The notes beneath the pieces are model-generated. The model made no database searches. It was not told the DNA's origin and was given only the letters and a program-made list of their open reading frames with translations. A program made the translations under genes and the position numbers. Positions 5,093 through 63,125 of a stretch of DNA of 64,000 bases are shown here, piece after piece. Each line of letters starts with the position of its first letter. Position 1 is the stretch's first letter. The stretch covers positions 32,917,739 through 32,981,738 of the forward strand of contig OZ029918.1 in NCBI GenBank assembly GCA_964023275.1, read 5' to 3'. This DNA is from Norana najaformis (Eukaryota > Annelida > Clitellata > Crassiclitellata > Hormogastridae).

Positions 5093-5330
5093 CCTAGATC
5101 CTATCCTTATTCCTCTTCTTCCCCTAGTCTATCTCGACGCCCAAAAGACCATCCTTCGTAACCCTCTGACGGTCTGCCTGCCTTCTTCTTGTATCTTGAC
5201 ATGAAGTCGATTATGACCTTCCTACCTATCGATTTTGTTTTTATTGAGCACCTGTGAATAAACTGGTTCCCCCGACTTAGCTTTCGAAGGGCGCGGTAGG
5301 AATCTCGAGTTTACCATTAGGATGATTGTT
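5093..5330 (+). mobile_element. CR1/L2-like LINE 3' end
   Basis: Carries the 3'-terminal module repeated many times here: 'cctatcgattttgtttt', 'gcacctgtgaataaactggt', 'cttagctttcgaagggcgc', then a short tail derived from GATTACGA-type repeats. The module follows a recognisable reverse-transcriptase C terminus at 11642-12290, which identifies it as a LINE 3' UTR. Confidence 0.55.
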
Positions 5331-5926: not shown

Positions 5927-7650
5927 GCTCCGCGCACGTGTTTTAGAAAGTGAATTAATTAAAGGAATATCAACAACACAGCATGCAGCAAGTTCAGGAT
6001 TTGGGCTCAAAACGCATAGTCGTCTTCCTATTCTTCACAGTAACCTTTACAGCCGTCATCCTGATGAATATTTTCGACGCTTCGCTGATGCAGTTTCAGT
6101 CGAATATATGGAATAAAAGTGGTGCGCAGATATTGTTGGGTGGTTCTAGCTGTCACCACAGCGAGCCAACATTAAAGGAAATAACCCATCCATTTTCGGC
6201 CCTTCTCCTTCTATCGTGTGGAAGTACGCTGGAACGCATTCATCTATTGAACGTCGCACTTGAACGCTTAAGAGTTCAACGGCTGATGCCACTTAAGAAA
6301 ACTCAAGACTGGAATATAAGCGCACCAAATCAATTAGAATTGTTAGCCGAGTGGAACGATACCTTCTTTAAGGATCTATCCAGTTACTCGCAAATAACAA
6401 CCGTCATTCTACCGTGGCTACGCAGTCCTCAACAAAAAGAAGAGGAATGGAGTTCGTTAACCGATTCTTCAAACCTGCTCATTCAAGAGTATTACGAGTC
6501 GACTGCCACTGATCCTCTGTGTACTTGGATTGAGATCCCTGGAAAGGTAGAATTTAGCTTTGACGTTATTAATAACTGGACGTGCAATCGAAACACAACT
6601 CGTGGAGCCATCCCGAAGTCGCTATCTCTGCTCGCACTAAACGCAAAGCCTCCCTACAAGGGATATTATTATCCGGCCGCATTTCCACCCCAATTTTTTA
6701 CCGAATTGCCTCGTGTACTTCTCCCGTTGCACATAATCAGATCCGGAATAGCAAATGGTGTCGGCAATGTTTTCATTCGGAATGCCAAGATTGTTCCGTA
6801 TGCGTGTTTTCCTGATGAGAAATTAATTCCCCCGGAAAACATTGAGAACATTCCCCTCTATAATGAGGTTTTCGTCATTGCTCAGTCGTACGGTTCCCTT
6901 AACTACCACCGCTTGGCAGAAACGACACCCAGAATAGCCATCTTTATTGAATTTCTACTTCAAAACCCATCGATAATGATCCTTGCACCGGAGAACAAGG
7001 GCCGAATTGTTGAACTACTGACGGTCTTGGGAATTAAGAGCGATCGTATCATTAGTGGTTGGTGTCGAGCGGAGATTATCTATTTACCGAGAGCCACTAC
7101 ATGCTGCTTTCCGCATTTTCTCGAGACCCAATTTCTATCTCTACTCTACCGGAAATACCTTAAGAAAAACTTCCCGTCCAACACTCGCAACAAAGTCGTC
7201 TTCATCCGACGAACACAGTATCGTTTTTTCAACAATCAATCTGTAATCGAAAGAGTCGTGGAAATGGCGGCGCATGCGCATAATCTGAGTTATGTAGTTT
7301 TCAGGGATAATCCGTCGCCCTCCTTCATTGACATGATGCGTATGTTCAACGCGGCCGTCATGGTTGTCGCACCTCACGGAGCTGGTTTGGCTAACCTCGT
7401 TTTCTCCGAACCTGGAACGTTCGTCGTCGAAGGAGTCTGCAATCGTCCTCACACGAACCTCTTCTTCCAGAGAACCGCTCAGGTTCTCGGACACCGATGG
7501 CACGGAATTCCGTCAAGTCGTGGGTGTTTACTTGGAGGGGTTCACGGAGTGGTTGGCGAGGTCACAGTCGAGCCTTCCATCATCAACGACACGATTAGGA
7601 CCTACTTGGATTTCTGGGATGAGACAACTTACAGAAACAAGTCATTGTAA
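5927..7650 (+). CDS. GT61-family glycosyltransferase, copy 1 (GT61-1)
   Basis: One coding exon, ATG 5983 to TAA 7650, 555 residues; the first ATG after an in-frame TAA. A 3' splice site (tttaaatttcag, ending at 5927) precedes it, so a 5' UTR intron is likely. Residues about 10-30 form a hydrophobic anchor (VVFLFFTVTFTAVILM), giving a type II Golgi/ER membrane topology with a lumenal catalytic domain. The C-terminal half has GT61/DUF563 hallmarks: NYHRLAETTPR near residue 307, VVFIRRTQYR near 406, and VVAPHGAGLANLVFSEPGTF near 461. This family includes EOGT, POMGNT2 and plant xylosyl/arabinosyltransferases, which use nucleotide sugars. Donor and acceptor cannot be read from sequence. Several N-glycosylation sequons occur (for example NWT, NTT). 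First of three tandem copies and apparently intact. Confidence 0.8.
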
Positions 7651-7814
7651 TAGTTGCCTTATAGTATCAGGCCTACTGTTTAAGACTTATGCCTTCACGA
7701 TGCTCAAGTGCAATTTCTTTAAAGCCATAACTCAGCAATATCACTTGGAAGAAGGATTTTAAAATTTTCAGCTCCGATTGAGAAGCATGAACAGAAACTA
7801 CATAAGGGGCAGGG

Positions 7815-8250: not shown

Positions 8251-9186
8251 CTCTTCGTGCCCACGGCAGTTTTCGGGAGTTAGATCGAGTGAGTGAAAAT
8301 TACATCATGCCTGGAGGGTATCAAACGTGCAATAGTTCATTAAAATGTGACAGTGGAGGTGGCAGTGAAAAGTAGTAAAGAAACTAAAAGTCGCAATCCT
8401 CAAATTCCCCTCAATTGCAGCATAGCAAAGTGTAGTGTACGAAGTCATAAAAACTAGCACACATACGCTTCGTATTTGGAAAGCCATCGTAGTAATTTGC
8501 TCAAAATGGACCGGGCAATTGTCATAATATGCTGAAAAATTGCACTAAGGAATTGGCGGACTCAGAGAGCTATCCATAAAACAGAAGGCCTACGCTTGAG
8601 CTTGTGTCCAAACCATGCCTAAAGTGAACAACAATTCATCTAGCTGTCCAAAAAAACCATGCAGCTTTTACTATGAGAAAATAGATACTGCCACACAAGA
8701 TTATAAAGATTACTTAATTTTTAATGTGACTGAAGAGTTGATAATTACATTTGAGCCAACATTCTACACAATACTGAAAGATAAACTAATTGAATTCTCA
8801 GAAATTCCAAAAACGCAAACACTTCACTCAGCTTGAGAATGTCACCTACAGACCAGCGAGGTGAAGATGAAGCCATTGAACTTCAGCAGCCTAGAGAAAA
8901 TAAAAAATAAAAACGGTGTGAGATAGCAAAATATTCAGATTGCAAAGGAAAGTGAACAGATGGCAGAACTGTTCTGTTTGACCTGTTAACTGTGTTTTTC
9001 ATTTACCAGAGTATTATGCGAAACTGGCTTTTGAGAATAAAGTCAATGTGAATTAGAAACTCGTTTTCGTGCATTTAACCTGTGAAAAATTGTACATTCG
9101 GGTGATTACTGTTGCCATGTTTGTGCTTCAGGGCTGTTGGGGATCCAAGGCAAAAGGTAATGTGATACCCTTCCTCCCTCACCCCG
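8240..9186 (+). repeat. GT61 3'-flank segment shared with 46225-47085
   Basis: Colinear with the DNA downstream of GT61-3, starting at 'cgtgcccacggcagttttcgg' and running to 'ccctcaccccgtagtggtt'. It contains an ORF at 8615-8836 (73 codons, SSSCPKKPCSFYYEKIDTAT and so on) that is shifted and truncated at 46.5 kb and broken at 4.8 kb, so I do not call it a gene. The homology stops abruptly at about 9187. Confidence 0.6.
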
Positions 9187-9187
9187 T

Positions 9188-9437
9188 AGTGGTTCACTTA
9201 CAGCGGCTCACGGAGTGGTTGGCGTCGTCACAATCGAGCCTTCCATCATCAACGACACGATTTGGACCTACTTAGATCTCTGGGATGAGACAAATTACAG
9301 AAACAAATCATTGTAATAATCGCCTTATTGTGGTTGGCCTAATGTTTAAGACTTATGTACACACGACGCTCAAGTGTAATCTTTTTATAGCCTTAACTCA
9401 GTAAATTTTACTTGGAAGAAGGGTTTTGAAATTATGT
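9188..9437 (+). pseudogene. GT61 C-terminal fragment (fourth, partial copy)
   Basis: From 'cacttacagcggctcacgg' this matches the last 40 or so codons and 3' UTR of GT61-2 (26406-26640) almost base for base, including LTAAHGVVGVV-coding sequence that distinguishes GT61-2 from GT61-1. There is no upstream part of the gene. At its right end it is fused to the IHO1-like exon 4 relic. It marks a recombination junction in the array. Confidence 0.75.
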
Positions 9438-9449
9438 TTTTTTGTTTGA

Positions 9450-9523
9450 TGCATTATTTTTATTGGACAAAATTTCCACGATGGAGTTTCCACGATGACA
9501 CTCTGGCTCTTCTCAAGATTAGA
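9450..9523 (-). pseudogene. IHO1-like exon 4 relic (block A)
   Basis: Corresponds to parent exon 4 at 52148-52246. It still encodes SNLEKSQSVIVET, then a 13-bp duplication ('ttccacgatgga' repeated) shifts the frame. The exon's 3' part is missing because the block starts here. Confidence 0.75.
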
Positions 9524-10450
9524 CTGAACTAAAAAAATTGCAAATTTCCTTAGTCTATTTAATTCCCAGACGGCCCCATTCACTGAGCAAACAGCTAGCC
9601 CACACTGTGCCTCTGGTGTTGACTGGTGGTCATCTATATGCCTAATGTGGACGGAGCACTGGTGGCTGTTAGTTTAACTAAGCGCAACATAATGGCTGAA
9701 TTTAAACACTGCTAAACCAGCACAAACAGATGTCTGCAATAGAGCAATGCTGAAATTGCAAATGCAGATGTCTGCAATATAGCCATGCAGAAGTGCATCA
9801 TTGCCTCTTACATAATTTGTATTGTGCTTACTATAGCTGCTGCTGCTTTCATTAAGTTGTATTACAATGTATTGAAATTGTAAAATTATTTGTATAGCGC
9901 TCCCCAGAGATAGAACTATTCAAAGATGCACACGGCATGAAAACCATGAAAACAGATCAATCTTAAGACAAATGAGCCACAGAACTGCCTATTTATTTCA
10001 CAGTAAGACTCAGTTATTCTTAGCTAAATGTTTGCTATTTTACTGTCAACATGTAACCACAAATCTAACAGTCCATCTACGAAACAAATGCTACATATCA
10101 GCACACACTGCGACATTTTTAATAGTTTGCATCGTTTTACAGCTAGTGCTACATAAGTATGTTACAGCAGTTAACTACAAGGTTATGGGTTCTTACTTTT
10201 CTCCATGAATGTTGTCAACTGGCACTCAGTGGATCCTATACCCAGCTGCGTGCTCTCTTTCAGACAGGCCACAGCGACCCGGACTTCAGCAGAACATTCT
10301 CTTATACCAGATACCAAGCTGTTCCACAAATCCCTCTATCAAAGAAAAAATCCAGCCAATCAAAATATCAATCAATACGCCAATCAAATCAACCGTTTAA
10401 AAGATTCTTAAGTAACTCAACGGTGTCACAGTAATTAATCAGAGCACTTG

Positions 10451-10830
10451 AGACTTCCTGCCTATCAATTTTGTTTTGACTAAGCGTATGTAAATAAGCT
10501 AATTTCCGCGACCTAAGCTTCTTTGGGCGCTGGTAGAAATCTGTAGTTTAAGATTAAGATAAATTTATATTGCGCTTTTCAACGAATCTTCTCAACTGCT
10601 ATATTTACAAATTTTTTCGCTTCCTAATTTATGCAATCGTAGTTAAACCGGAAGAACTCTAACAGTTTTCCCATACTGAAGTCGATATATGACAATATCG
10701 CCGTACACGCATCTATGAATAAATTATTTCCTAACGGTAATAGTGGCATTGGGCATTTTGACAAAAAGTTTAACAAGCACACCATGCAAAATAAACTCTA
10801 TCCACTCGTCAAACATGCTGTTGTAATTTG
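10451..10830 (-). pseudogene. HS1BP3 intron 1/exon 1 relic (block A)
   Basis: Aligns with 62270-62640: the LINE 3' end in HS1BP3 intron 1, then exon 1 and upstream DNA. The exon 1 relic is at 10731-10756 and would encode MPNATITV plus a split Arg codon, against MPVATVTV in the parent. The donor GT is changed to GA, so it cannot splice as before. Confidence 0.75.
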
Positions 10831-11641
10831 TTTAAGCCCATCAGAAGACAATCGGTGCCTATTTATGGGGTTGAATAGCTTTATCAATGACTATCACCAA
10901 CACCTCTAGTTACAATCAGACGCTCAAATGCTGCCTGAATCCGTAAACGGTCAATTTTTCGTTGGATTTTATTTTAAAATTGCACAATATTCGACTGCCC
11001 TACAGCTACAGATTAAAGGGCAATTGTAGCCTAAAGAAATGTAATAGTAATGTTAATATAGCACGTGACTCTGTAACGCTGGCGAACATCCACGAAAAAG
11101 CTTACTGTCGCGTTCGCTGAAGACAATGACGTCGGTGCGTGGGTTCACTGGTTCCCTCTGGTGTTCATGGATGATAGTTGAAGGCGCACCACTGGCCCGC
11201 GCAAATGAAGACACGTACCTGTGGAAATGGGCTAGTCACGTGACCAGTTTCAACTCAAGTTCATACGGCGCTCGGCTGATAATAGAGCAGGTTTACCTTT
11301 ACCGCTGGTGCTAGAACTCTGAAATTACCCTCGGGTAAGCTATTTGTTTCGTTAACGGATTCCTTGTTACTTTTATGTGAGGTACTATTATAACTATTAA
11401 AACAAACGTTTCAGTCATCTGAATCATCTTCTTAAATCGAAAACTGTTTCTTTATAAGACATGTAGCTATGATAGGGCTTTTGCATAACATTAACCTAGT
11501 TTTTTTAAATATCCAGTCACCCGCTCACTGTCCTAACCAGTTACATCCTGCAAAAGACCCACAAATAACATTAAGCTCATGGCAAATGGAGCATACTGTA
11601 ATTCACTTTTCCTCAATATTGACAAAACCCAGATAATCGCC
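10831..11641. other. No gene seen; promoter-like patch
   Basis: Identical in block B (28980-29790). At about 11060-11345 there is a GC-richer patch with two CACGTG E-boxes and a good donor-like 'gggtaagct' at its end. It could be a displaced 5' exon/promoter, but nothing downstream in the window continues it. Confidence 0.25.
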
Positions 11642-12290
11642 TTCAATGATTTCAGAATGCTCTCGCTCATGCCGTCACCAAATCTCCCAAATACCGTCGC
11701 ATCACTCCTTTTGTGAAATCACTTCACTGGCTTAAAATACCAGAACGAATAGAGTACAAAGTCTTATCCCTAACCTACGACACACTTCAATCCTCCCAAC
11801 CCTCCTACCTTCGTCAGTTATTTACAATCCAACCACTTTGTTCATCTCGCTCCTCATCTTTCCTAACACTTCTTCGCTCTCCCGTCACCTCATCCTTAAA
11901 ATTTGGAAATCGCTCCATAGCCATAGCTGCCCAACCCTTCTGGAATAAACTCCCGCCAGAATTGCGACAGCTGTCTGGTCCATCATACGAACCATTAACA
12001 CTTAACCTCTTTCAGTTTCTACGCAGATCTTTCACTCTAGACTGAAAACACTTCTTCTCCAAAAACTTATCCTGATTCTTCCTCTTCCCCTAATCTCTCT
12101 TCTCGCTTCAATTTCAAACAACATCCACCGTAGCCGTCCGACTGTCTGACTGCCTGACTCCTGGATCTTGACCTGGAACCGAATCCTTTTGCCTATCGAT
12201 TTTGTTTTGCCTGAGCGCCTGTGAATAAGCTGGTTCCCGCGATTTAGCTTTCGTTATGCGCTGTAGAAATCTTGAGATTACGATTACGAT
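11642..12290 (+). mobile_element. CR1/L2-like LINE 3' fragment (block A)
   Basis: The end of a reverse-transcriptase ORF is readable: QNALAHAVTKSPKYRRITPF, KSLHWLKIPERIEYKVLSL, PSYLRQLF, then a segment with FWNKLPPELRQL, typical of the C terminus of CR1/L2/jockey-type elements. It is followed by the 3' UTR module and a GATTACGA-type tail. 5'-truncated as usual for LINEs; it was present before the blocks duplicated. Confidence 0.75.
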
Positions 12291-13569
12291 ACACTTGATT
12301 TCCCATACTTCCATTCACAGCTGCATAAGAATCGTTCATCAGTCGCTCAAAAGATATATATTGGTAAATAAATTGTTTCATACAACTGCTCCGACATTAG
12401 GGCCTATATCCTGAATAAATATTAAATTTATAACTTAGACTTTTAAACTCTCATACAATATTGGTTGATGCCTTGTGCATTAGACATTGGCGCATTAGAA
12501 GTTGCTAATTATTATTATTATTATATCATTTTAAGCAAGGGTGTCTGCATAACCTATCAGTCTATTAAGTTTCTGTGTTGGTTTAAAAATGCAAATGAAT
12601 ATTCGATTCTTCTGTATGACATGATTTATTATGATCATGTCAAATGGCTCTTTAATATATTTTTGTTACCTTTGCTATTACGAGTTCGCTGAGTAACACG
12701 GATACGTTTTTTGTATGTGTTCTTTCGATATGAATTTACTTATCTTTCACGAGCAAAACTCGTATGCGAACAGTAGTTGATCAAAAACGACACTCTATAG
12801 AAACAATGCGACAATCTTTTCCACGTGCACCTTCAACTTAAGAAACTGTTTGCTTACATAAGTGATTGGAGATTTTCGCATCACGTCTGTGATTGTATAG
12901 TAGTTTAGATCTTGTTACAAATCTTTTGGTAACTTTACAGGGTCCCTCACCGTCTGGTCGGGGGTATGTTACATACACACGGCGTATGGGATAGGACCGA
13001 GTGAGTGTGTTATAACTTAGACTTTCAAAATATTATACAGTCTTCTGTAAATTTTGCTGGGAAAGCCAATTTTATTAAAAGGTGTTATGTTTAACTTCTG
13101 ATAAGACTGAATTATGGCTGTTGGTCCGGCGCCATCTTTTTCTTTTGCGGTTCTTCGACTAATCGAGCTTAGTCCATTTGCGTAAATGATTTGTTTGATT
13201 CTTTTGAGACGGATTGGTTACCTTGGAGCTGTGTTTTGTTACCGTTTCGTGGTGGACGTTTTGTTTTCTCTTTGTGAGGTTTTTCGCTGGTTTCATCGCC
13301 GTCTGAGGCCGATGTCTTGTTGCTCTACTTGAGTCATGTTACACCTGTACATAGCTTAGGAAATAGATTTTGTCCTAAAGCTGTTATATGGCTACATGAG
13401 GCCAGTCACGCCATTGTACGACAGGGTCGATTACGGCAATGCCAGCTACGCGCGGAGCCTCACGCACATATTGATCGATTTTTATATTCTGTTGTTCTGG
13501 TTTATGTGGTTGGTGTAGTATAAAAGTTGGGCACATCCTAGCCAGCTTAGTCATAATTTTTTTATGGGA

Positions 13570-13590
13570 CCCATATAGGGCCTATATGGG
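13570..13590. repeat. 21-bp palindrome
   Basis: CCCATATAGGGCCTATATGGG is an inverted repeat around a single central base. Block B has the same palindrome at 31704-31724 with the central base changed from G to C. Confidence 0.6.
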
Positions 13591-13959
13591 AATATGATCA
13601 AAATTTAATTAAGGTGGCCGTTTTCTATGTATAATAAGCTGGATTGGCTATACAGTTCTCATGCAAGATCTTGAACCTTTTCAATGTTTTCGTTGCTTCT
13701 CGCAGTTCGTGATCTGCCGCTATCTGTCTGACGACCTGATGATCCGGTTCGATCAACCCTTCTCAGAAGCGGCTTAAGTCCACCGAGTTTCCGTCCCTTT
13801 TCTGGAAATTATCTTAGGAAACTTTTGGCCCCGAAATTCTTATTTTGGTGTAAAAATTAATTTTATCATCTTTCTGTTCTCTTCGATGAACCCCATTTTT
13901 ATCGTAGTTTGTCCATACATGACGTCACAGTGACATCATATTTAACAGGGAATTTCAGT

Positions 13960-14013
13960 CTGACTTAGCTTATCTGACTTACCTATTCTGACTTACCTAT
14001 TCTGACTTACCGT
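13960..14013 (+). repeat. Short tandem repeat, about 14-bp unit
   Basis: Three to four copies of a 'ttctgacttaccta' type unit. Also present in block B at about 32088-32144. Confidence 0.6.
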
Positions 14014-15179
14014 ACTATGTGTGAGCGCCTGTGGTGAGTTTCTCTTTCTATAAATTTGCGATTACAGTTACAGTTGTAATCAACATCATACACATATGCA
14101 GCCAATTAAATGTGAAGTATTTGTGATTTACCATCTTATTTCTGAATTACATAGGCAAACATTACTTAACACTTAAAGTTTATGCAACTAAGGTAAGCGA
14201 ACTTTTGAACACTTGAAGTTATATGCAACTCAGGTAGGCCTGCAGGGAGGACTTTGTAGCCCTTGTCGTTCCTGTACATGTAGCTTTGCAACTGCCAAAT
14301 GCAGTGGAGCATTTTGCAATATTCGATGATAGGTTAAAGAAGAGAAAGAATTGCATCAGGCGTACCATAGCAGAGTTTTAGTTTTACTCCGAACAACTAC
14401 ACGGAAGGACAATTGCGAAAGGTAAATCTCTTTGAGTAAGTCTATTACGTTTGCGTCTTGGTTTTAAAAATGCAAAGATGTGCGGTTCTCTTGTATAACA
14501 TGATTGTTATGATCAATGTCTAATGTCTCTTTAAAATATTGTTACTAATTCAGCTGTCAACGGCCCCTCAGAACTTTTCCGATACGCTCTTCGTATGAGT
14601 TGCTTCGACGACTGACCCTCTCTTGCACGAGTAACTTTGTCTCTTTGAAAGCGTTCTTCACGGTTAAGAAACAGAAGCAGTTGTTGGCATTCTGTTGCAC
14701 TGTCGGTTGCTTGGTTTGTTGTTCGAACAGATCAAGTTCTGAACTGATCGTGTAGAGCAAAATGTAGCCTGTTGTGTTTGATGCTTCCCCAACTTCAATA
14801 TTGACCTAGGAAACTAATACTTGTTTTCGGCTCAGTTAGTACACCCCCCTATAAAACAGCCCTACGTTTTCAGAAAGGCTTCAGGATGTCTGCGAAGTAT
14901 AAGGCGTAGCTTTGGCGGGAAAAACTCTCACGAAAATCAAGGCATTTAGTGATACTTTGCCTTAACCTACTTCAATCCGAAGCTCATTTTGTTTGATGGT
15001 GGGTTTATATTGTTCGGTGGAGAGCTGAGGGGCGTAAAGTTACATTGCATTCATGAAGATGTTCCATTATTCCCTAAAGTGGCGTTATATAATGCAGGAC
15101 AGGCATTCGTCGCTCCAATTCTTTGAAACAGACTGGCGCCATGTAGGGTTACGGGAATTTGTCAGATTCTGTCGCTTGG

Positions 15180-15545
15180 TTCCAGCTCACCGACTGTGCT
15201 TCTTCACGGGCGAAACTTCACTTTCACTTACTGTTAAGACCTCCCACTCAAAATTTAAAAAAGTAACTTCCAAGAAATTCTATCCACGCTCTTCCTCTTC
15301 TCACGTCTTCAAGAAATCCTACCCTTATTCGTCTAATCTGCTGTCTTCCCGTTTATCTCAGCTTAAACACAGCCCACCCTAACAGTTCCTTTCCCCCTTC
15401 TCTCTCTGGTCTTCTGGCAACCGGACTTCGTTCTTGACACGGCATCTTTGAACAACCCCACTGACTTGCCGCAGCGCTCGTGAATAAGTTGGTGCCCTGC
15501 GCTTAGTTTTTAAGTAGCGATTTATAAATTTCGAGTTTACGATTT
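15180..15545 (+). mobile_element. LINE 3' end, second subfamily
   Basis: Contains 'ggcaaccggacttc', 'ttgccgcagcgctcgtgaat', 'ggtgccctgcgcttag' and a TTACGATT tail. The same module occurs in block B at 33365-33750 and at 45180-45325. Immediately downstream (15550-15760) is a piece of another related 3' end. Confidence 0.5.
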
Positions 15546-15984
15546 ACGATTATTTTGTTCTCTTTGTTCGCTCCAATTCTAAACACCATCCACCGTAGTC
15601 GTCTGACGACCTATACGTGGCTGCCTGATCTGTTGGTTCTAGCTCGGACAGAAACTTGATCATACCTACCTCATCAATTTTGTTTGTGACTGAGTGCCTG
15701 CGAATGAGCTGGTTTGCACGACTTTGCTCTTTTGGCGCTGAATAAATTCGGAGAAAACGATTACTATGAGTGTACAATAGATTATCATTCATGCAGATAT
15801 GTGTTCCAGTCTTACGAATTTATTTTGATAAATAATGAACTTGCGATGGACCTATGCACGCCCCGCCGACATGCAATGTTTTGACATAGGCCTGTGTCTC
15901 TCTTGCTAGTTCCACCAGTTCCACTTGTGTTATCCACCTGAAGTCTAATGACGCCAGTCGTCTTATCTTAAAGAACGTTTTCTA

Positions 15985-16235
15985 AAGGGTTAGCGTGCTG
16001 GACTACCAACCACACTCTGGGTTCAAATCCCCACCAGATCTGAAAGGTGTTTCGAAATTTCTGCTCTACTTGCGTCCCCTAGCGGACTCAGCTATAAAAC
16101 GAGTACGTTGACTGTACACTGTCAGTGGGATGATAAGACGGCAAGGCAACTGACTGGCCACCGGTCCTCATATGCCGAGGCTAAGAAAAATGAAGTCGGT
16201 AACACTTCATGTCCATGGCTGCCTCTCGGAGTTGG
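15985..16235 (+). repeat. tRNA-derived SINE (block A)
   Basis: A box GGTTAGCGTGCTGGACTACC and B box GGGTTCAAATCCC, then body 'gcggactcagctataaaac' and 'tgccgaggctaagaaaaatg'. The block B copy at 34287-34537 is nearly identical. Confidence 0.65.
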
Positions 16236-16307
16236 CTTGTATTTAGGTCGGTTATATAACCGTGTATGTAGCACCTTTACGAGGTGTTACGAGGTGCTAT
16301 ACATTAT

Positions 16308-16650: not shown

Positions 16651-17280
16651 ATTCTGAGGCATGAATGCTGATGTTCTCTATAAAAATGATTAGCACGAAA
16701 TATTAGGTATATGTGATTTTTGTCAACATTTGTCCGTACCAGTTTATCCATGAGATTATAGCTGATGACATTGTAATTGTAATTGTAAATTTGTATTGCA
16801 CCTCTTCATGAAAGCTTACATGAATCGTGTACTCGTAGTAAATTAAGTATCAGATTGGGCACGACGTTTCGGCCGGCCACCGGAAAAATGCAGTCACTAA
16901 GACGTATTGTGGTCTTCTTTTTGCAATTTTAAGGATGAGGTGACGGGAGGGGAGAAACGATAGAGCAGAAGAGCAGCGGGTTGAACAGAATGGTTGAATT
17001 GTAAATAACAGACGAAGATAGGACATTTTGGAGAATTGAAAAATTGTGCTGTAGACCTAACGCTAAACTAATTTCTTGGGTAAAAATCGGACCAACCAGA
17101 CTTAATATCTTAAGAATTAATTTATACTTATCAGTCATATGTACGGATTTTTACTGACGGGTCTAAAGCGGGAAAATAGTTCATGTTGCGTTTACCATTC
17201 CTAGTCTACCGATAGAGTGTAAATGTCGGGTTAGTGAAAATTGTAGTATTTATTCAGCCGAACTCACTGACATTAGGGAA
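16651..17280. other. No gene seen
   Basis: No recognised feature; no counterpart in the matching position after the 37.3-kb microsatellite. Confidence 0.4.
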
Positions 17281-17395
17281 CCGAACCCTTTTTGCCGATC
17301 AATTTTGTTTTGACTGACCGCCTGTGAACACGCTGGTCCCCGTGATGTGGCTTTCGTTGGGCGCTGTAGAATCTAGGGATTACGATTATGATTCT
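17281..17395 (+). mobile_element. CR1/L2-like LINE 3' end
   Basis: Only the terminal module remains: 'cgatcaattttgttttgact', 'gcctgtgaacacgctggt', 'ggctttcgttgggcgctgta', ending in GATTACGATTATGATT. Confidence 0.55.
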
Positions 17396-17424: not shown

Positions 17425-19575
17425 CGTGTAATAAAGGAACAATAGAATTCGCCGTCCAGACAATAAACTTATATAGCCATTTCCATTCTTACAGAGCTTG
17501 GCGAGCGAACTAGGCTGCCTCGCCACTTCAAAGTATGCGATCGCATATTGAGAGCATGCCAATGTGGCTTGTATCGGTTGACTGCAGTTTTATACAATAT
17601 GTCTAAACTGGTTGTAGTCTATTTTTAGATTCACATGACATGTACCTATAGATTAGTTTGTTGACTATTAATCCGATGTATTTTTGCATATAAAACTTTC
17701 GGCCACTTGTTGAAAATAATTCAGTTGAAACGGAGTTGTGTAAATGGTTGTTAGGGTGGGGTAGGAAATTGGATAGAGGGGTGAGGGGAATGTATTTCGC
17801 AACGTAGTTTCGGTGAATGGCCACAAATGCACTTAGACAATCAGATTCTTTTGTCCACAGAAGTACTGTTCCTCTTAGGTATGTACAGATAGGTATTTCT
17901 GAATGATCACTATTTGCTAATTGATGTATATTTCTGTCAGTGAAATTACTTAGAAAATTTAATAGTTCACGCAGTTGTGAAGTTTATTTTGTGTAGGCCT
18001 ATACATAATCAGAGACTGTTCTTACATTCTAGTGTATAAACTATTTCTATTTCTATTCTGTGAATGCTTTTGCTAATTAAATATATATTTCTGTACATCG
18101 CAATTCAGTTAGGAAATGTAAATCTACGCACTTGTGAAGCTACTCGTATGTATAAACAATCAAAGACTGTTCTTCAGTTTGTAATGTATAAACTACTTCT
18201 ATCCCACACATATCTATTTGCTAATTGATTATATACTTCTGTACATTGCAAGTAGCTTAAACATTGTAATAGTTTACGCAGTTGTTATGCTACTTAAAAG
18301 ACTCTTCTTGGTAATGTTAATTCATAGACGTTAACGGCCAGTGATACTAGATGATGTCCTTAGATGTCCTGTGGACCTGTGGTAGCTTGCTTGAACTTAA
18401 GTTAAGCAGTTATTAATCACGCACACACGTGGTAATCGACCACTGGTATGAATTATTTTGATTATTTTTCTAATGACAGCTGCGTAGAGCTGTAAATTAA
18501 AAATTGGCAAAACACTATTGCCATAATTTCAATGAAAGAAGAAGATGGAAGTGAGTTATCGCAGTGAAAGAGAGCTTTTTCGTGCCATGTATCTGTCGGA
18601 TACGTTTGTTGAAACGAAACTACGATGAACAGCCTCATAGTGTGCAACCAAAGATCTTATAGTACACTAAGATGTGACACTCATTGATCCCAAAGTACAA
18701 GGTCTTTCATTACCTTATAAAATGCCAATCGCATACTGGCGCGGCTATCGAAAAAGTTGTGTGGCCAGTCAGCGAGGTCGTATTACTTAAAGCGCTAGGT
18801 GGCGCTGCTGTTTTGTTTTCTTGAGCACCAAACACACGAATGACACAGCAGTGATAGGGAGCGTCACTCCTTCTGTACACTAAGATCTTTGATGCAACTG
18901 TGCCTGAAGGAGACAACTAGACATAATAGTCATAGTCACATAGGCAGCACAAACTTAATGCGAATGTAAACAAGGTAGTTTAAAAGTTGGGCGTTGAAAG
19001 CTAATACATACAGACATTGTCACCGTTTTCTCAGTCTGAGCAATACAAACACAGTAACAGCGGCATGTGTATTCAGCTCAGAGATTTGAAATGTTTTCTC
19101 ACTGGTTGTCAGAATTTAACAGTTGCATAAAAAGCAATGAACATTACCTAAAGAATATTACTCGTTATTTTATTTCAGGGGGAAAATTAATAATTACACC
19201 TGTTATGTAATCATTCAGTGCCCATTTTGCAGTATGATCAAAAGTAGTTACAGAAGTAGTTTAAAAATTAGTTTACTACTTTTTCTAAACCTAGTCAATA
19301 ACTACTAGTTATACTCCTTCAAAAGCAAGTGAAAAGTAGTTGCAGTTAAACTGCTTTAATATATTTAAGCACTTAGTGCCCATCATTGCTAACTTACCTT
19401 CTATACGCATAACCTTCTTTTGACCTATACTTTACAATACTATGTACTACACCTCATCTTAATGTTGAATTTTGTATGATTTATTCCCGCTGCTGAGAAA
19501 GTACTAAAGTTTCCAATTTATAAAGGATCGATAGACGATAATTGGACAAACGGATGTGGCAGTTAGCCGTACAAA
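17425..19575 (+). repeat. 2.1-kb arm, inverted copy at 37720-39700
   Basis: Left arm of a long inverted repeat. Matches run from 'aataaaggaacaatagaatt' at the left edge to 'aattggacaaacggatgtgg' at the right edge. Differences and small indels are frequent (roughly 10-20% by eye), so it is older than blocks A/B. No transposase or other domain is readable. It contains a tandem array at 17900-18300. Confidence 0.8.
17900..18300 (+). repeat. Tandem repeat, about 150-bp unit
   Basis: Three imperfect units, each with 'tttgctaattgat', 'atttctgtacat', 'cgcagttgtgaag' and 'gactgttctt...gtataaact'. Anchor words start at 17916, 18072 and 18220, giving periods of 156 and 148 bp. Inverted counterparts lie at about 39000-39340. 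Confidence 0.7.
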
Positions 19576-20480
19576 ACAGATTGTCAGCTCAATTGTTTCT
19601 TCAGGCTTAGTTTGTTCGCATTTGTGTACTTAGCGGCGCGTGAGGGATGTGTGTGTGTGTGTGTGAAACTGCTCGCTAGGCAGGGTTTGATTATTTGCTG
19701 GCCGCCCAGGTGTAGGATAAAGCGGGAACGCGCACTTGTTAATTGTGGAAAGGGCTAGAGCTGACATACGGCTCGCTTCCTGATTGGCTGACACCTGTTT
19801 AGCGTAAATAAGGAGGCAGCTGTTTTCCATTTATCACTGCTTGCATTTTAATGAACTGTATATATTGTATTAGTACTGGTCGCACGTTAACAGACCTGTC
19901 CAGACTGAAATTTGAATTAAGTATGTGAAGTTGATTTTGAAGAAGTGCTGATTGTCAGACATTGTTTAACTGCGACTATCTGTAGATGTGAAAAAGCATC
20001 GTACTGTTAATAAATGAAGTTAAGTTTCGACATTAAAGAAAGAATAGAGAACCTGGTCTTTCAATTTTGAATAAGGACGACCAGCATTTTTGAACTAGGA
20101 GTAACAGAGTAAGATTATATAGTAAGGTTACAGTGCTAAGTCCATGGTAAGCATTGTAAGATGATTTCTGCACAATATTCAGCAAACATCCTGAGCTCAA
20201 TAGTTTGCCTACCACTTGGACACGTTACCCTTTGTCAGCCTAGGAAGAGGAGTTGACTGAGATGTTAACTTCGAGCAAACCACTAAAAGCCTTTAACTGT
20301 GCATTACCAGTTGTTCAAATTCTTCATGATTAGGCTCTTAAATCTGCATCCTAAAGCAGACGACAGTTAGCTTTGAACATTCATGCGGTTTGTTTAGACT
20401 TCGTAAACAGTAGTACACGTTGTCTGCACTTAGACATCTCGTATGATCGCAGTCTATTCGTTCAGGTATTTTAGCTTCGT
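19576..20480. other. Unique spacer with short GT repeat
   Basis: Holds a (GT)n run at about 19650-19664, an ATTGGCT CCAAT-type motif near 19785 and an AATAAA near 20010. This could be an old LTR, but I found no terminal repeats or target-site duplication. Confidence 0.3.
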
Positions 20481-22218: not shown

Positions 22219-25200
22219 TGTTCTGTTCTCAGCCTTCCTCGTTCCGAGATTCGGCCGCATCATGCACAATGTTCCTCCAGTGTCCTCTGTCCTCCACCAG
22301 CCTGAGCATCTCCTCCATTGTTAGCCCAGTCCATGCCCTGATGTTGCCCAACCAGTTTATTCTCGGTCTTCCTCTTTTCCGTTCTCCCGGTATTGTGCCC
22401 TGTATTATCTCCTTCTCGATGCATGTTCCCTCCTTCCTCATGATGTGGCCAAAATAGATCAATTTCCTTTTCCTTACTGTCTTCAAAAGATTCCTCTCTA
22501 CTCCAGCCGCTTCCAGTACCCATTCATTTGACCGCATTTCCATCCACGATATTTGCATGATCATTCTTAGACATTTCATCTCGAATGCTTCTATCCTCCT
22601 CTCTTCCTCCTTCCTCAAAGTCCAACTCTCACATCCGTACAGTGCCACCGGCCATACTAATGTCATCAAGAGCCTCATCTTTGTTACCAGTGATATGCCA
22701 TGGCTTTTCCATATTTTTTTAAGATTTGTAGCCATTGCATATCCCTTTGCAAGTCGTACCCTTATCTCTGCTCCACAATCGCTGTCCCTGTCGATCCTCG
22801 AGCCCAAGTACATGAAAGTATTCACCTGCTCCACTGTTTCCTGACCTATGCTGATCTGACACCTGGTTTCTGCTGTTGTCATGACCTTTGTTTTATCCGT
22901 GTTAATCCGCATTCCATATTTCCTTCCTGCTCTGTCTAATCTTTCAACCAGTGTTTGTAATTCCTTCTCAGATTCTGTTATTAGTACTATGTCGTCTGCG
23001 TATCTTAAGTTTGTCAACCGCCTTCCCCCTATCTGCACTCCTCCGTCAAAACCCTCCAAAGCCTCTCTCATTACCCTCTCCGCCAGAATGTTAAATAAAC
23101 TTGGAGACAACACGCATCCTTGTCTCACCCCTCTCCTGACTCTGAACTCTCCAGATAGTGTTCCTGCCACTTTGATCTTTGCGTTTTGTTTCTTGTACAG
23201 CTTGGATAACAACTTTATTATGTGTCCAGGAAATCCCATTTCTATCATTGTTGTCCATAATGTTTCATGTGCTATTGAATCAAAAGCTTTTTTGAAGTCT
23301 ACAAAGCACATGAAAAGAGGTTGTTGATGTTCATTTGCCTTTTGCATAATAATTCTCAGGTTTGTTATCTGGTCTCTTGTCCCTCTAGCCTTCCGAAAAC
23401 CCGCCTGTTCTTCCGCCACTTCTGCTTCCGTCTGATTCCTTATTCTTTCCAAAATGATCCTCAGCATAATCTTACTTGCGTGTGCGACCAAGGCCACTGT
23501 TCTATAGTTTGTACATTGCCTGGCATCTCCTTTCTTTGGTATGGGTACAAAAATTGAATCCGCCCAATCCTCTGGCCATTCTCCATCTTCCCATAGTGCT
23601 GTGCATATAAGATGAAATCTGTCTACTGTAGCTTCTCCTCCGTATTTAAACAGTTCCGCAGGTATTCCATCCGGCCCCGCTGATTTCCCGTTCGCACACT
23701 GTTTTATCGCTCTTGCCACTTCTGATCTTAAAGGGGGTGGCTCTCTCTCGTATTCATTCGTGTCCTCCTTCACCTCTTTGTCATCGTACAGTTCTTCGCA
23801 ATACTGCCTCCAACGTTCAGCAATGCCTTCAGTGTCCGTGATGTATTCTCCATTTTCTGCCTGTATGCAGTGTATTTTTGGCTGGAATTTGTTTGTAATT
23901 GACCTGACTGTTCTATACAGATATCTACTGTTCCCCTTCTTGTTCTCTATTTCCGCCTTTTCACACACCTCCTCCAGTTGTTTCTGTTTGTCGTTTCTTA
24001 GATGTCTCTGTACCTCCGCCTTCAGTTCTTTATACTCTTCTCTGTCCTTTTGCTTGGCTTCACGCTTCTTGTTGATGAGTTCAACAGTTTCTTTGGTAAT
24101 CCATGGCTTCCCTTTGTCTCTCCTCCTGTAACCGACTATTTCTTCGGCCGCAGTGAAAAGTATGTCTTTTGTTTCCTTCCACAATTCGTTGGGTGACCTT
24201 TCCTCTATTACCGTGTTCAAAGCTTCGAATCTGTTTGCTACTTCTATCTCATAGGTGATTCCCTTGTTTCCAGCCAGATCCTCTACATTCAGTCTTTTTA
24301 TCACCTCTTCCTGCTTTTTCCTTCCTAATCTGATCTTCAATGTTGCCACCAGCAAATTGTGATCTGAATTGCAGTCCGCACCTGGGTATGTCTTGCATTT
24401 GTTGATACACGTCTTCCACTTCCGATCGATACCTATGTAATCAATCTGGTTTTTTGTTCTTCCGTCCGGAGATGTCCAAGTACTTAATCTCCTTGGATGT
24501 TGTTTAAACCATGTATTGGCCAGACCCAACTCCTGTTCCATACAAAAATCTATTAGCCTCTCCCCTCTCCCATTTATCTCCCCCAATCCTTCTCCACCCG
24601 TCACTGGTTCTATTCTACTTTTTCCCACTTTAGCATTGAAATCTCCCATTACCATTGTAATGTCTCTTTTCGGAATGTTTTTTAACGCTTTTGCCAGCAT
24701 CTGGTAGAACTCCTCAACTTCATCTTCCTCTCCATCTGTTGTTGGCGCATAGACCTGTATCATGCTTATGCATCTTGGCTTTGCTTTTAATCTTACCACC
24801 AAAATTCTGCTGCTTATTGTTTCATATCCAATTAGGGCCTTAATCCTGTTTTTCTGTATCCAAACTCCTACTCCTCCATGTCCCTGAGTCTCTTCTCCTG
24901 AATATACAATCATATGTCCCTCTGACGTTATGAAGTGTCCCCTGCCTCCCCAACGTACCTCTGCCAAGCCACATACCTCCAACCTCATTCTCTCCATCTC
25001 CTTACCAAGAACCTGGGTTTTTCCCAGCTGTATCATACTTCGCACGTTCCAAGTGCCTACTCTCATCCTCTTCCTGAGTTGAAAAATGTCATCGTCCGAC
25101 TTCCCTCTCTCTTCAATCTCCTCCGTCCCTGTATTACCTCCTCCTCTTCTTCCAGTAGCCGACTTTCCGACCCTGTCCTGGTTGCTCAACAGGGGACGCG

Positions 25201-25612
25201 GACCTTGTGAACCCGGGCGTCGTCCGAGCCGGTATGGATTAAGTTTGGATTCCATTTTTCATGATGCTGTTTGGGGATGATAAGATGGTAGGCCCCCTAG
25301 TCTTTCCATCTCGCAGTAAGGAAGCCCTGCTCCAGGTGTACCGGAAGTGCCCTCCTGTCTCTGTAGACTCGCCGTTGTCCCTTGTAACAGGATCTTCCGT
25401 CTAATCTACTGAAGTCTCGCTGCTGCCCGAGACCTGCCGCTCACGTTGGCCAATCTTTCAGAGTTCCTGCTGAGCCTGTCCAACTCGCGAAGCGCCCGAG
25501 GTGGTACTTCAGTCAAGACTTTCACCACTGTTGGCATAGCCTCAGCAGGCATTCTCCTACTCAGTTGTTCACCCCCTCACCACGTTGAGGTGTGAGTCGG
25601 TCTTTGAGGGGG
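22219..25612 (-). mobile_element. Full-length RTE/BovB-like non-LTR retrotransposon
   Basis: About 3.39 kb, oriented opposite to GT61-2, flanked by the 10-bp duplication TAATCAGATC (22209-22218 and 25613-25622). The 5' end is at the right with about 357 bp of leader. The 3' end is at the left: the stop codon is followed by only a GAACAGAACA short repeat, the minimal 3' end typical of RTE elements. Intact GT61-1 and GT61-3 serve as empty sites. Confidence 0.9.
22229..25255 (-). CDS. RTE ORF: AP-type endonuclease plus reverse transcriptase
   Basis: 1008 residues with no interruption. The N-terminal endonuclease/exonuclease/phosphatase domain starts near residue 65 (RVGTWNVRSM), with VYAPTTDGEEDE, VMGDFNAKVG near 205 and a GADCNSDHNLL motif near 300. 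The reverse transcriptase follows: FVPIPKKGDARQCTNYRTVA, AGFRKARGTRDQ, FVDFKKAFDS, RRGVRQGCVLSPSLFN and the catalytic YADDIVL near residue 750. A C-terminal segment has YFGHIMRKEG and KRGRPRINWLG. This layout is that of RTE/BovB elements, often annotated as craniofacial development protein 2-like. It nicks target DNA and primes reverse transcription from it. All key motifs look intact, so the copy may be young and competent; activity is not shown. Confidence 0.9.
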   Translation of the reverse strand: MESKLNPYRLGRRPGSQGPRPLLSNQDRVGKSATGRRGGGNTGTEEIEERGKSDDDIFQLRKRMRVGTWNVRSMIQLGKTQVLGKEMERMRLEVCGLAEVRWGGRGHFITSEGHMIVYSGEETQGHGGVGVWIQKNRIKALIGYETISSRILVVRLKAKPRCISMIQVYAPTTDGEEDEVEEFYQMLAKALKNIPKRDITMVMGDFNAKVGKSRIEPVTGGEGLGEINGRGERLIDFCMEQELGLANTWFKQHPRRLSTWTSPDGRTKNQIDYIGIDRKWKTCINKCKTYPGADCNSDHNLLVATLKIRLGRKKQEEVIKRLNVEDLAGNKGITYEIEVANRFEALNTVIEERSPNELWKETKDILFTAAEEIVGYRRRDKGKPWITKETVELINKKREAKQKDREEYKELKAEVQRHLRNDKQKQLEEVCEKAEIENKKGNSRYLYRTVRSITNKFQPKIHCIQAENGEYITDTEGIAERWRQYCEELYDDKEVKEDTNEYEREPPPLRSEVARAIKQCANGKSAGPDGIPAELFKYGGEATVDRFHLICTALWEDGEWPEDWADSIFVPIPKKGDARQCTNYRTVALVAHASKIMLRIILERIRNQTEAEVAEEQAGFRKARGTRDQITNLRIIMQKANEHQQPLFMCFVDFKKAFDSIAHETLWTTMIEMGFPGHIIKLLSKLYKKQNAKIKVAGTLSGEFRVRRGVRQGCVLSPSLFNILAERVMREALEGFDGGVQIGGRRLTNLRYADDIVLITESEKELQTLVERLDRAGRKYGMRINTDKTKVMTTAETRCQISIGQETVEQVNTFMYLGSRIDRDSDCGAEIRVRLAKGYAMATNLKKIWKSHGISLVTKMRLLMTLVWPVALYGCESWTLRKEEERRIEAFEMKCLRMIMQISWMEMRSNEWVLEAAGVERNLLKTVRKRKLIYFGHIMRKEGTCIEKEIIQGTIPGERKRGRPRINWLGNIRAWTGLTMEEMLRLVEDRGHWRNIVHDAAESRNEEG

Positions 25613-26689
25613 TAATCAGATCCGGAATAGCAAATGGTGCCGGCGATGTGTTCATTCAGAGCGCTAAGATTGTTCCGTATGCGTGTTTTCCAGATGCGAA
25701 ATTAAATCCCCCGACACATGTTGAGAAAATTCCCCTCTACAGTGAGGTTTTCGTCATTGCTCAGTCGTACGGTTCCCTTAACTACCATCGCTTGGCAGAA
25801 ACGACACCCAGAATAGCCATCTTTATTGAATTTCTACTTCAAAACCCATCAATAATGATCCTTGCGTACGAGAACAAAGGCCGGATTGTTGAACTATTGA
25901 CGGTCTTGGGAATTAAGAGCGATCGCATTATTAGTGGTTGGTGTCGAGCGGAGATTATCTATTTACCGAGAGCCACTACATGCTGCTTTCCGCATTTTCT
26001 CGAGACCCAATTTCTATCTCTACTCTATCGGAAATATCTCAAGAAAAACTTCCCGTCCGACACTCGCAACAAGGTCGTTTTCATCCGACGGACAAAGTAT
26101 CGTTTTTTCAACAATCAACCTTTGATTGAAAAAGTCGTGGAAAAGGCGGCGAATGCGCATAATCTGAGTTATGTAGTTTTCAGGGATAATCCGCCGCCCT
26201 CCTTCACTGACATGATGCGTATGTTCAATGCGGCCGTCATGGTTGTCGCACCTCACGGAGCTGGTTTGGCCAACCTCGTCTTCTCCGAACCTGGAACGTT
26301 CGTCGTCGAAGGAGTCTGCCATCGCCCATACACGAACCTCTTCTTCCAGAGAACCGCTCAGGTTCTCGGACACCGATGGCACGGAATTCCGTCAAGTCGT
26401 GGGTGTTCACTTACAGCGGCTCACGGAGTGGTTGGCGTCGTCACAATCGAGCCTTCCATGATCAACGACACGATTTGGACCTACTTAGATTTCTGGGATG
26501 AGACAAATTACAGAAACAAACCATTGTAATAGTCGCCTTATTGTGGTTGGCCTACTGTTTAAGACTTATGTACACACGACGCTCAAGTGCAATCTTTTTA
26601 TAGCCTTAACTCAGTAAATTTTACTTGGAATAAGGGTTTTTAAATTTTCAGCTCCGATTGAGAAGCATGAACAGAAACTACATGAGGGG

Positions 26690-26815
26690 CAGGGTTGGTG
26701 ACTTGGTTAGCAGAAGTCGATGTTCAATTCCCCACCAGGACAGACAGCTATGTAGTTGTTCCATTTGTGTGAAATAGTGGAACAGAAATATTGAGACACA
26801 CCGAAAATACAGTTT
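26690..26815 (+). repeat. SINE remnant in GT61-2 3' flank
   Basis: Matches 7795-7930 ('gttggtgact', 'cgatgttcaattccccacca', 'gtggaacagaaatattga'). It is cut at about 26815 where IHO1-like sequence begins. Confidence 0.55.
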
Positions 26816-26985
26816 CAAGGTGACTCAGAGAATTTTGGTTGTGACAGAAAACTGCCTCCAAGCTTGCGGTTATCTTTTAATACAAATCTCCACTGGTTGC
26901 CTGTAAGTTGTTGATGGTACGGTCCTGCTTTTCTTGCATGACTTTCTGAACCTGCTTCTCCAACTTTTGAATGTTTGCATTTTTT
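26816..26985 (-). pseudogene. IHO1-like exon 5 relic (block B side)
   Basis: Corresponds to about 51420-51583, the 5' part of parent exon 5. The acceptor has changed from cacag to cacca and several codons differ. Intron 4-derived sequence continues from 26986 to 27541. Absent from block A. Confidence 0.75.
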
Positions 26986-27541
26986 GGTGAGACAATAAAC
27001 ATGCCCTACGCAAGCTTGAAAGAATCTGATAGTTTTAAGTCTCATAAACAGATTTACATTAGAGAACGCTATTACTTACCATTATTTTGTAACCTGTTCA
27101 TTCATATTGCATTATGAAGCAGGGATATTGGTAGGTTATGGGTTAGACCAAATAAACACAAATGTTCTTGAGCTACAGATCCTAGTTAATGTCAAGATTT
27201 TACAAAACTCAAATTTAAAGTCTAAACCTTTGTGAACTTCCACTTGAAGTAAAGTTAAAACTATTTTTGTCTCAAACTAATATCGCGCAAAACATGTCAT
27301 TAAATGTTTTTCTAATAGAGTAGATAATTAATGTACTGCAGTTTTTTTAGAAAGCTTAAATTTCAAGTGAAAACAAGTAACGCATTTGTTAACACGCCAT
27401 GCTCCAGCGGCTGAATGATGAAATGTAGGCGTATAAAACTTGCTACATATTTACTCCTTTACCACTGTTGGTCAAATGTGTTTGCTCCTGAACAAGTATG
27501 TAAATTCAGAAGAATAGACAATTAGATAAGCATTTTCTTAC

Positions 27542-27654
27542 TATTGTCATTTATCGTTGAAGTTCTGTTTCTTTGGTTGTTGCATTATTTTTATTGGACA
27601 AAATTTCCACGATGGAGTTTCCACGATGACACTCTGGCTCTTCTCGAGATTAGA
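27542..27654 (-). pseudogene. IHO1-like exon 4 relic (block B)
   Basis: Same exon as 52148-52246 with both splice sites recognisable (ttcag acceptor, GTAAGA donor). It carries the same 13-bp internal duplication as block A, which shifts the frame, and a later stop. Confidence 0.75.
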
Positions 27655-28599
27655 CTGAAAAAAAATTGCAAATTTCCTTAGTCTCGTTAATTCCCAGAGT
27701 CACGTGCTATATTAACATTACTATTACATTACTGAGCAAACAGCTAGCCCACACTGTGCCTCTGGTGTTAACTGGTGGTCATCTACATGCCTAATGTGGA
27801 CTCAGCAGTGGTGGCTGTTAGTTTAACTAAGCGCAACATAATGGCTGAATTTAGACACTGCTAAACCAGCACAAACAGATGTCTGCAATACAGCAATGCT
27901 GAAATTGCAAATGCAGATGTCTGCAATATAGCCATGCAGAAGTGCATCATAAACTCTTACATAATTTGTATTGTGCTTACTATAGCTGCTGCTGCTTTCA
28001 CTAAGTTGTATTACAATGTATTGAAATTGTAAACTTATTTGTATAGCGCTCCTCACAGAAAGAACTATTCAAAGATGCACACGGCATGAAAATTATGAAA
28101 ACAGATCAATCTTAAGATAAATGAGCCACAAAACTGCCTATTTATTTCACAGTAAGACTCAGTTATTCTTAGCTGAATGTTTGCTATTTTACTGTCAACA
28201 TGTAACCACAAATCTAACAGTCCATCTACGAAACAAATGCTACATATCAGCACACACTGCGACACTTTTAATAGTTTGCATCGTTTTACAGCTAGTGCTA
28301 CATAAGTATGTTACAGCAGTTAACTACAAGGTTATGGGTTCTTACTTTTCTCCATGAATGTTGTCAACTGGCACTCAGTGGATCCTATACCCAGCTGCGT
28401 GCTCTCTTTCAGACAGGCCACAGCGACCCGGACTTCAGCAGAACATTCTCTTATACCAGATACCAAGCTGTTCCACAAATCCCTCTATCAAAGAAAAAAT
28501 CCAGCCAATCAAAATATCAATCAATACGCCAATCAAATCACCCGTTTAAAAGATTCTTAAGTAACTCAACGGTGTCACAGTAATTAATCAGAGCACTTG

Positions 28600-28980
28600 A
28601 GACTTCCTGCCTACCAATTTTGTTTTGACTAAGCGTATGTAAATAAGCTAATTTCCGCGACCTAAGCTTCTTTGGGCGCTGGTAGAAATCTGTAGTTTAA
28701 GATTAAGATAAATTTATATTGCGCTTTTCAACGAATCTTCTCAACTGCTATATTTACAAATTTTTTCGCTTCCTAATTTATGCAATCGTAGTTAAACCGG
28801 AAGAACTCTAACAGTTTTCCCATACTGAAGTCGATATATGACAATATCGCCGTACACGCATCTATGAATAAATTATTTCCTAACGGTAATAGTGGCATTG
28901 TGCATTTTGACAAAAAGTTTAACAAGCACACCATGCAAAATAAACTCTATCCACTCGTCAAACATGCTGTTGTAATTTGT
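28600..28980 (-). pseudogene. HS1BP3 intron 1/exon 1 relic (block B)
   Basis: Equivalent of 10451-10830. The exon 1 relic is at 28880-28905, encoding MHNATITV before the split codon; the donor is again GA instead of GT. The junction with IHO1-like intron 3 is at 28600-28602. Confidence 0.75.
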
Positions 28981-32713: not shown

Positions 32714-33774
32714 AGCTGTCAACGGCCCCCTCAGAACTTTCCGATACGCTGTTCGCATGAGTTGCTTCGACGACTGAGCCTCTTTTGCACGAGTAACTTT
32801 GTCGCTTTGAAAGCGTTCTTCACTGTTAAGAAACAGAAGCAGTTGCTGGCATTCTGTTGCACTGTCGGTTGCTTGTTTTTTTGTTCGAACAGATCAAGTT
32901 CTGAACTGGTCGCGTAGAGCAAAATGTAACCTGTTGTGTATGATGCTCCCCCACCTTCAGTAGCCTATTGACCTAGGAAACTAATAATTGCTATCGGCTC
33001 AGTTAGTACACGCCTCTATAAACAGCGGCTCTATATTTGGAGAAAGGCGTCAGGGCTGTACGCGAAGTGTAAGGTGTAGCCCCCTGCAGTTGGGTTTAGG
33101 TGGCTGGCTTTGGCGGAAAAATCTCTCACAAAAATCAAGGTATTTATTGAATAGATACTTTACCCTACTCTACTTCAATTAGAAGCTCATTTTGTTTGAT
33201 GGTGGGTTTGTATTGTTCGTTGGAGAGCTGATGGGCGTAAAGTTACATTGCATTCATACAGATGTTCCATTACTCCCTAAAGTGGCGTTATATAATGCAG
33301 GACAGGCATTCGTCGCTCCATTTCTTTGAAACAGACTGCCCCCATGCAGGGCTAAGGCAATTGGTCAGATTCTGACGCATGATACCAGCTCACCGACTGT
33401 GCTTCTTCACGGGCGAAACTTCACTTTCACCTACTGTTAAGATCTGCCACTCAAAATTTAAAACAGTTACTTTCAAGAAATTCTATCCACCCTCTTCCCC
33501 TTCTCACCTCTTCAAGAAACCCACCCTTATTCATCTAATCCACTGCCTTCCCATTTCTCTCAGCTTAAACACAACCCACCCTAACAGTTCCTTTCCCCTT
33601 CTCTCTCTGGTCTTCTGGCAACCGGACTTCTTTCTTGCCATGGCATCTTTGGACAACCTCACTGACTTGACGCAGCTCTCGTTTATAAGCTGATGCCCTG
33701 CGCTTAGCTTTTAAGTAGCGATTTATAAATTTCGAGTTTACGATTACGATTCTTCTTTCTCTTTCGTCGCTTCA

Positions 33775-37505: not shown

Positions 37506-37719
37506 TATGGCCTACAACGTGGCCTTCTTTTGCTGCAATCATACAATATGTTTGAGTGCAGGCATCATGTACTACTGCTTACAAAGTCTGAACAAACTGT
37601 ATAAGTGTTGGAAACTATATGTCGTCTATTTGGGATGCAACATTAGAGAGCAAAATCAATTGAACAACTAGTGTTAAACAGTAAAAGGCTTCTAATTTCT
37701 TGCTCGAAGTCTACATCTG

Positions 37720-42337: not shown

Positions 42338-42392
42338 TTCCGCGCACATGTTATCAGAAGTGAATTAATTAAGCAGAAATCTATAACCCAGC

Positions 42393-55374: not shown

Positions 55375-55689
55375 CTATTAAAACAAAATCATAATTCTCA
55401 TCAGTATCAAAATTTATAGATGCCTTGAGTAACTAATTTCAAACAGATCAATTAATCGTGGTCAAAATCCATTATCACTACATCCTTCAATGTACCGGCA
55501 TGGTAGAAATAACATCTACGATAACCAATGCTTGTACCGTAACTCATTCAAGGTCGCTGTATGGTGTTATTCAACTACAAAAGATTGATCACAGTAATGT
55601 TCTGCTCATAATCTTGACTCCATAGGTTATGCCCTGTATGTCTATAAACCTATACAGTAAACGGCTTAGATGCGTACGAGAGCAGAGGG

Positions 55690-56010: not shown

Positions 56011-56069
56011 AAGGAACATTTGGAACTAGCGCTGAGCATGTGCCTAGTATTTTTTAACATTTTAATAAT

Positions 56070-56200
56070 CTGCAATGTGGGCTGCCGGAACATGGTTCTT
56101 TCTGGGACTGCCTGTTGTATCCCACATGAATTTTAAAAAAAATGTAATATGTCATATGATGTTGTCTTTTTGTGGAGCAATAAAATGAAATGAATAAGAC
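56070..56200 (+). repeat. Dispersed repeat (inverted copy at 3855-3990)
   Basis: 'gggactgcctgttgtatccc' to 'gtggagcaataaaatgaaat', with the ATGAA tail at the right giving + orientation of the repeat. Confidence 0.5.
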
Positions 56201-56269
56201 AGACTGAAAGGACGGAAGGAGGAACATTAGAATAGCGAGACACAACAGACAAAATTGATATTTTCTTAC

Positions 56270-62897: not shown

Positions 62898-63125
<228 letters not shown>

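Follow-up and report, generated by a model that had tools for sequence, protein, structure and literature searches.

A composite of coiled-coil and PX-domain gene fragments repeated in a GT61 array of Norana najaformis, probably left by partial tandem duplication

Within a 64,000-nucleotide stretch of the Norana najaformis genome (the window; contig OZ029918.1), two blocks of an array of GT61 genes, here called A and B, each carry a fragment in which part of a coiled-coil gene (labelled IHO1-like) runs into the 5′ end of its neighbour, a PX-domain gene (labelled HS1BP3-like). This composite is probably a non-coding relic of partial tandem duplication, later homogenised and converted, and our verdict on the locus is that it is ordinary debris of partial duplication with an instructive conversion history. 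It clearly illustrates how the junction left by a deletion could pass from one array block to another by conversion, and how a single exon could be renewed in an otherwise dead copy, so that breakpoints found in both copies cannot safely be read as inherited, nor well-kept exons as functional.

Both parent genes lie on the minus strand. The coiled-coil gene spans 47994-55374, with coding exon 4 at 52882-53018, in a model whose boundaries and translations were set by eye and script and in which at least two splice joints (between exons 3 and 4, and before the last exon) are uncertain. The HS1BP3-like gene has seven coding exons across 58240-62588, with exon 1 at 62563-62588 and a product that opens MPVATVTVR, all joints having been set by eye. 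In a self-BLAST of the window, positions 9485-10453 of block A (minus strand; part of exon 5, intron 4, exon 4 and part of intron 3 of the coiled-coil gene) align to parent 52208-53148 at 85% (E 0.0), and the continuation at 10451-10809 aligns to parent 62269-62640 at 76% (E 2.9e-44). Block B repeats the arrangement, its coiled-coil copy at 27720-28602 (minus strand) aligning to 52276-53148 at 86%, 28600-28852 to 62269-62520 at 79%, and 28871-28958 to 62553-62640 at 78%; the repeat tail and the HS1BP3-like intron 1, exon 1 and 5′ flank together occupy 28603-28958, again on the minus strand. Introns are retained in the copies, with parts of introns 3 and 4 in both blocks and part of intron 5 in B.

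The two sides of this join (J1) overlap by the three nucleotides AGA, at 10451-10453 in A and at 28600-28602 in B, and the same AGA stands at both parental edges. The parts are collinear with the parent and unchanged in orientation, with about 9.12 kb of parental sequence absent between them. An earlier note had described both junctions, the common AGA, the kept order and orientation and the size of the missing span, and it is borne out on each. A simple assembly error is rejected because the flanks of A and B differ, and it is very improbable that J1 is an assembly artefact, given that the same join is found in two separately placed copies with ∼6% flanking divergence.

When parent 53149-62034 was compared with 4800-40000, only two short matches were found (136 nt at 71% and 45 nt at 82%), and neither exons 1-3 of the coiled-coil gene nor exons 2-7 of the HS1BP3-like gene, which are modelled between the two edges, have a copy in that range, in agreement with the earlier claim that the 5′ IHO1-like exons and all HS1BP3 exons after the first were lost. 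The rest of the skipped sequence, 62035-62268, is dispersed repeat, of which the blocks do contain further copies (11922-12291 in A and the equivalent place in B). The joining had also been called microhomology-type; the overlap is indeed present, but it amounts to no more than 3 nt, which a random join would show about 5% of the time by our own calculation with equal base frequencies, and is weak evidence for microhomology joining at J1.

The HS1BP3-side break of J1 falls within the 3′ tail of a dispersed repeat (parent 62035-62378) that we take, by its look, for a putative LINE tail and that recurs at 11922-12291, 17277-17392, 5102-5323 and elsewhere in the window, the piece at parent 62269-62378 being found at some ten more places. 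In block A this tail, which in the parent belongs to HS1BP3-like intron 1, occupies 10454-10561 (plus strand; matching 12190-12291, 62269-62378 and others), and is followed at 10562-10809 (minus strand) by non-repeat intron 1, exon 1 (10731-10756) and 5′ flank, matching 62379-62636 with E 6e-32. Since the break itself lies within a dispersed repeat, the HS1BP3-side identity of the join is carried by the 262 nt past the repeat. At E below 0.1 those 262 nt match A (E 6e-32) and B (E 3e-30) alone, whereas no other match in the window exceeds 24 nt or has an E stronger than 0.16, and this specificity to A and B within the window rules out that the whole right-hand match is dispersed repeat. Parental exon 1 is identical at 21/26 positions in A and 20/26 in B, which are the two best non-self places for it on both strands of the window (next best, 18/26); 10731-10756, whose alignment to exon 1 the earlier note had set as a test, also lies inside the non-repeat alignment.

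The right-hand part starts within the 3′ tail of a repeat, with its 5′ side missing in the manner of truncated retroposed copies, and it might be proposed that the HS1BP3 part is such a tail with its 3′ flank, inserted into intron 3 by 3′ transduction. This reading is rejected as very improbable, as intron 3 does not resume past 10809 (10562-16240 gave matches to 53100-54100 of E 0.16 or weaker only) and the parental order and orientation are retained.

In block B another ∼7 kb is skipped, which the earlier account lacked. At this join (J2) the GT61 3′ flank meets parent 51409 at position 26810, within coding exon 6, and parts of exons 6 and 5 follow at 26810-27693 (minus strand); the size is an estimate, the alignable 3′ end of the third GT61 gene being at 44200. 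The skip takes in the 3′ part of the coiled-coil gene, its overlap is 1 nt against 3 nt at J1, and a search for parent 47051-51408 in 4800-40000 found no match at E up to 0.001. Block A is arranged otherwise, with intergenic sequence like parent 46236-47050 in three pieces at 8255-9134, then a scrap of a second GT61 3′ end at 9192-9433 (plus strand; 96.7% to 26405-26646, and 84.7% between 7526-7766 and 9192-9433), and then exon 5. Of the intergenic sequence, 8444-9134 corresponds to parent 46381-47050 and is absent from B. The intergenic pieces and GT61 scrap of A, set beside J2 of B, indicate that the array was rearranged several times.

Partial or chimeric gene duplicates occur in tandem arrays, and the present blocks resemble them in that the segment breaks within genes and joins parts of neighbours; they differ in that two collinear skips of one locus are seen and not a fusion of distant genes. 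It is possible, though rather unlikely, that replicative template switching produced the ∼7-kb and 9.1-kb skips together, in a single episode of faulty copying, and that they are not later deletions, a likelihood that overlaps with that of the debris reading, of which template switching is a variant and not a full alternative. Template switching would leave collinear skips with short overlaps, as are seen at J1 (3 nt) and J2 (1 nt), but overlaps of 3 and 1 nt are near chance, and the intergenic 8444-9134, present in A and absent in B, points to several events.

Divergence from the parent is informative about the age of the two halves. Block B differs from the parent at 124/532 sites of the outer intron (51586-52138) and block A at 75/354 sites of the HS1BP3 side, and these divergences are alike (Fisher p 0.51), as a single duplication age would give. 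In the inner intron, away from the surroundings of exon 4 (52255-52780 and 53019-53148), block A differs at 97/640 sites, which is lower than on the HS1BP3 side (p 0.018). The earlier proposal that one collinear segment was duplicated with loss of its middle gains support from the likeness of the outer intron and the HS1BP3 side, and the parent divergences taken together would fit a single duplication whose middle was in part converted afterwards. In the history favoured here, a stretch extending from a GT61 gene across the coiled-coil gene as far as the HS1BP3-like 5′ end would have been copied into the GT61 array, and the copy would have lost, or never have received, the ∼7 kb that include the coiled-coil gene's 3′ portion and the ∼9.1 kb from coiled-coil intron 3 to HS1BP3-like intron 1. 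The damaged block would then have come to stand in two copies, with a background A-B divergence of ∼6%.

Over positions 9440-16260 of A, the two blocks differ at 232 of 6,795 compared columns, and the best low-divergence segment, 10027-12968 on the A side, spans J1 and holds 9 differences in 2,939, against 35/584 in the left flank and 188/3,272 in the right. Its score was reached in 0/300 permutations, where, as in the permutation test on exon 4 below, sites were taken as independent and the tract edges had been picked once the pattern was seen. Divergence also varies within the right flank, from ∼2% as far as 14500 to ∼9% past it, and to speak of one clean A-B tract is a simplification. A later A-B conversion or double exchange may have rendered the ∼2.9 kb around J1 nearly identical. 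Interlocus gene conversion occurs between tandem duplicates, and a bounded low-divergence tract between paralogous blocks is what is seen here; unlike in the general case, the tract spans a deletion join, which blurs what was inherited and what was copied. Given that J1 lies inside this later, conversion-like tract, its presence in both blocks may reflect descent or conversion, and is no proof that the join is older than the block duplication. The earlier view that the deleted version was then multiplied thus remains the simplest order of events, but not the sole one.

A second bounded low-divergence tract, this time between the blocks and the parent, lies at parent 52783-53025 (6/239 in A and 5/239 in B; 0/2000 permutations each) and takes in coding exon 4 with ∼100 nt of the intron beside it. 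The exon 4 copy, at 10197-10333 in A (minus strand), retains its reading frame and donor and encodes the parent's peptide: A and B each differ from the parent at 2/135 positions, both silent, leaving 0 amino-acid changes in 45 codons; had the copy branch decayed freely, 8 to 12 such changes would have been expected (P 3.5e-4 to 5e-6). Because A and B are homogenised across exon 4, they count as a single observation and not two.

It might be supposed that the copied exon 4 remains in use, the HS1BP3-like 5′ end serving as the promoter of a chimeric transcript containing exon 4 and maintained by selection. The unchanged peptide, the kept donor and the position of the HS1BP3-like 5′ flank upstream of exon 4 in a shared orientation all speak for such use, and the right edge of the tract lies within 7 nt of the exon 4 boundary, a placement expected under selection but only a coincidence under conversion. 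The surroundings of the exon speak against it. The donor after exon 1 reads GA in place of GT in both blocks, exon 4 has an altered acceptor in front of it, an identical, frameshifting 14-nt insertion interrupts the exon 5 copies of A and B, and exon 6 of block B has an in-frame TAA and has lost its acceptor AG. Among the 58 codons of that exon 6 copy, 14 carry amino-acid-changing or stop differences and 5 silent ones, so that the decay expected without coding constraint is seen there and absent in exon 4 (changed codons, Fisher p 2e-4); protein-level selection on the whole copied gene is therefore not the cause of the exon 4 pattern. The adjoining ∼100 nt of intron are conserved as well (5/103 against 97/640 elsewhere, p 0.003), as conversion predicts, and the silent-site divergence of exon 4 (2/30) favours conversion, weakly (P 0.03 to 0.17). 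On this evidence continued use of exon 4 is improbable, and so, to a similar if slightly greater degree, is the idea that a captured HS1BP3-like promoter and the preserved exon form a new short transcript or exon under selection in the two blocks. Were exon 4 in use after all, the locus would show on a small scale how a gene can arise from debris. Judged from sequence, a protein from the composite is unlikely, and the low divergence of exon 4 appears to be best fitted by local conversion, in which a separate short event would have refreshed ∼240 nt around the exon from the parent.

The labels of the two parent genes differ in their standing. That the array carries broken copies of a PX gene, as the earlier note proposed, agrees with a PX domain in the HS1BP3-like product (PF00787 in Pfam, E 6.5e-8; 33.4 bits, the gathering score being 21.6), although HS1BP3 in the narrow sense is a putative label, and a search of the N-terminal 180 residues against PDB sequences gave 0 matches at E up to 0.001. 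The other half of that proposal, a meiotic-break gene, did not find such support: IHO1 is a putative label for the coiled-coil gene, given by the earlier note, and neither Pfam nor PDB sequences gave an IHO1/Mer2 match for its protein, libraries that may hold no IHO1 member. A 137-residue piece of the same protein gave only four unrelated matches among PDB sequences at E up to 10. The predicted protein resembles the Mer2/IHO1 family in being coiled-coil-rich in look, a likeness that no Pfam or PDB match supports. The family has a short conserved N-terminal motif and a central coiled coil (PMC8848140). A literature search found no paper on HS1BP3 together with IHO1, and Rfam gave 0 matches at gathering scores.

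The surrounding array has features of its own. The Glyco_transf_61 domain (PF04577) was found in the two GT61 copies scanned, with E 5.8e-15 and 2.4e-15, the LINE-split copy having been left out. Two uninterrupted long GT61 frames, 5959-7650 (563 aa) and 42387-44039 (550 aa), both measured stop to stop, flank the broken copy. The second GT61 copy is split by a LINE-type element at 22219-25612 (minus strand), which has an open 1009-aa frame (stop to stop) with endonuclease and reverse transcriptase domains and is bordered on both sides by TAATCAGATC, like a 10-nt target-site duplication. The spacers of the array units at 17427-19581 and 37715-39697 are in parts mutually inverted, with pieces 80 to 90% alike. 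A stretch of ∼140 nt is present in both blocks (15415-15554 and 33616-33751) and to the right of the third GT61 gene (45179-45317), the block stretches being ∼86% alike to the last and their end resembling the dispersed repeat tail. Just upstream of the HS1BP3-like gene, at 62898-63125, lies a perfect run of the four-base unit GACA of ∼228 nt.
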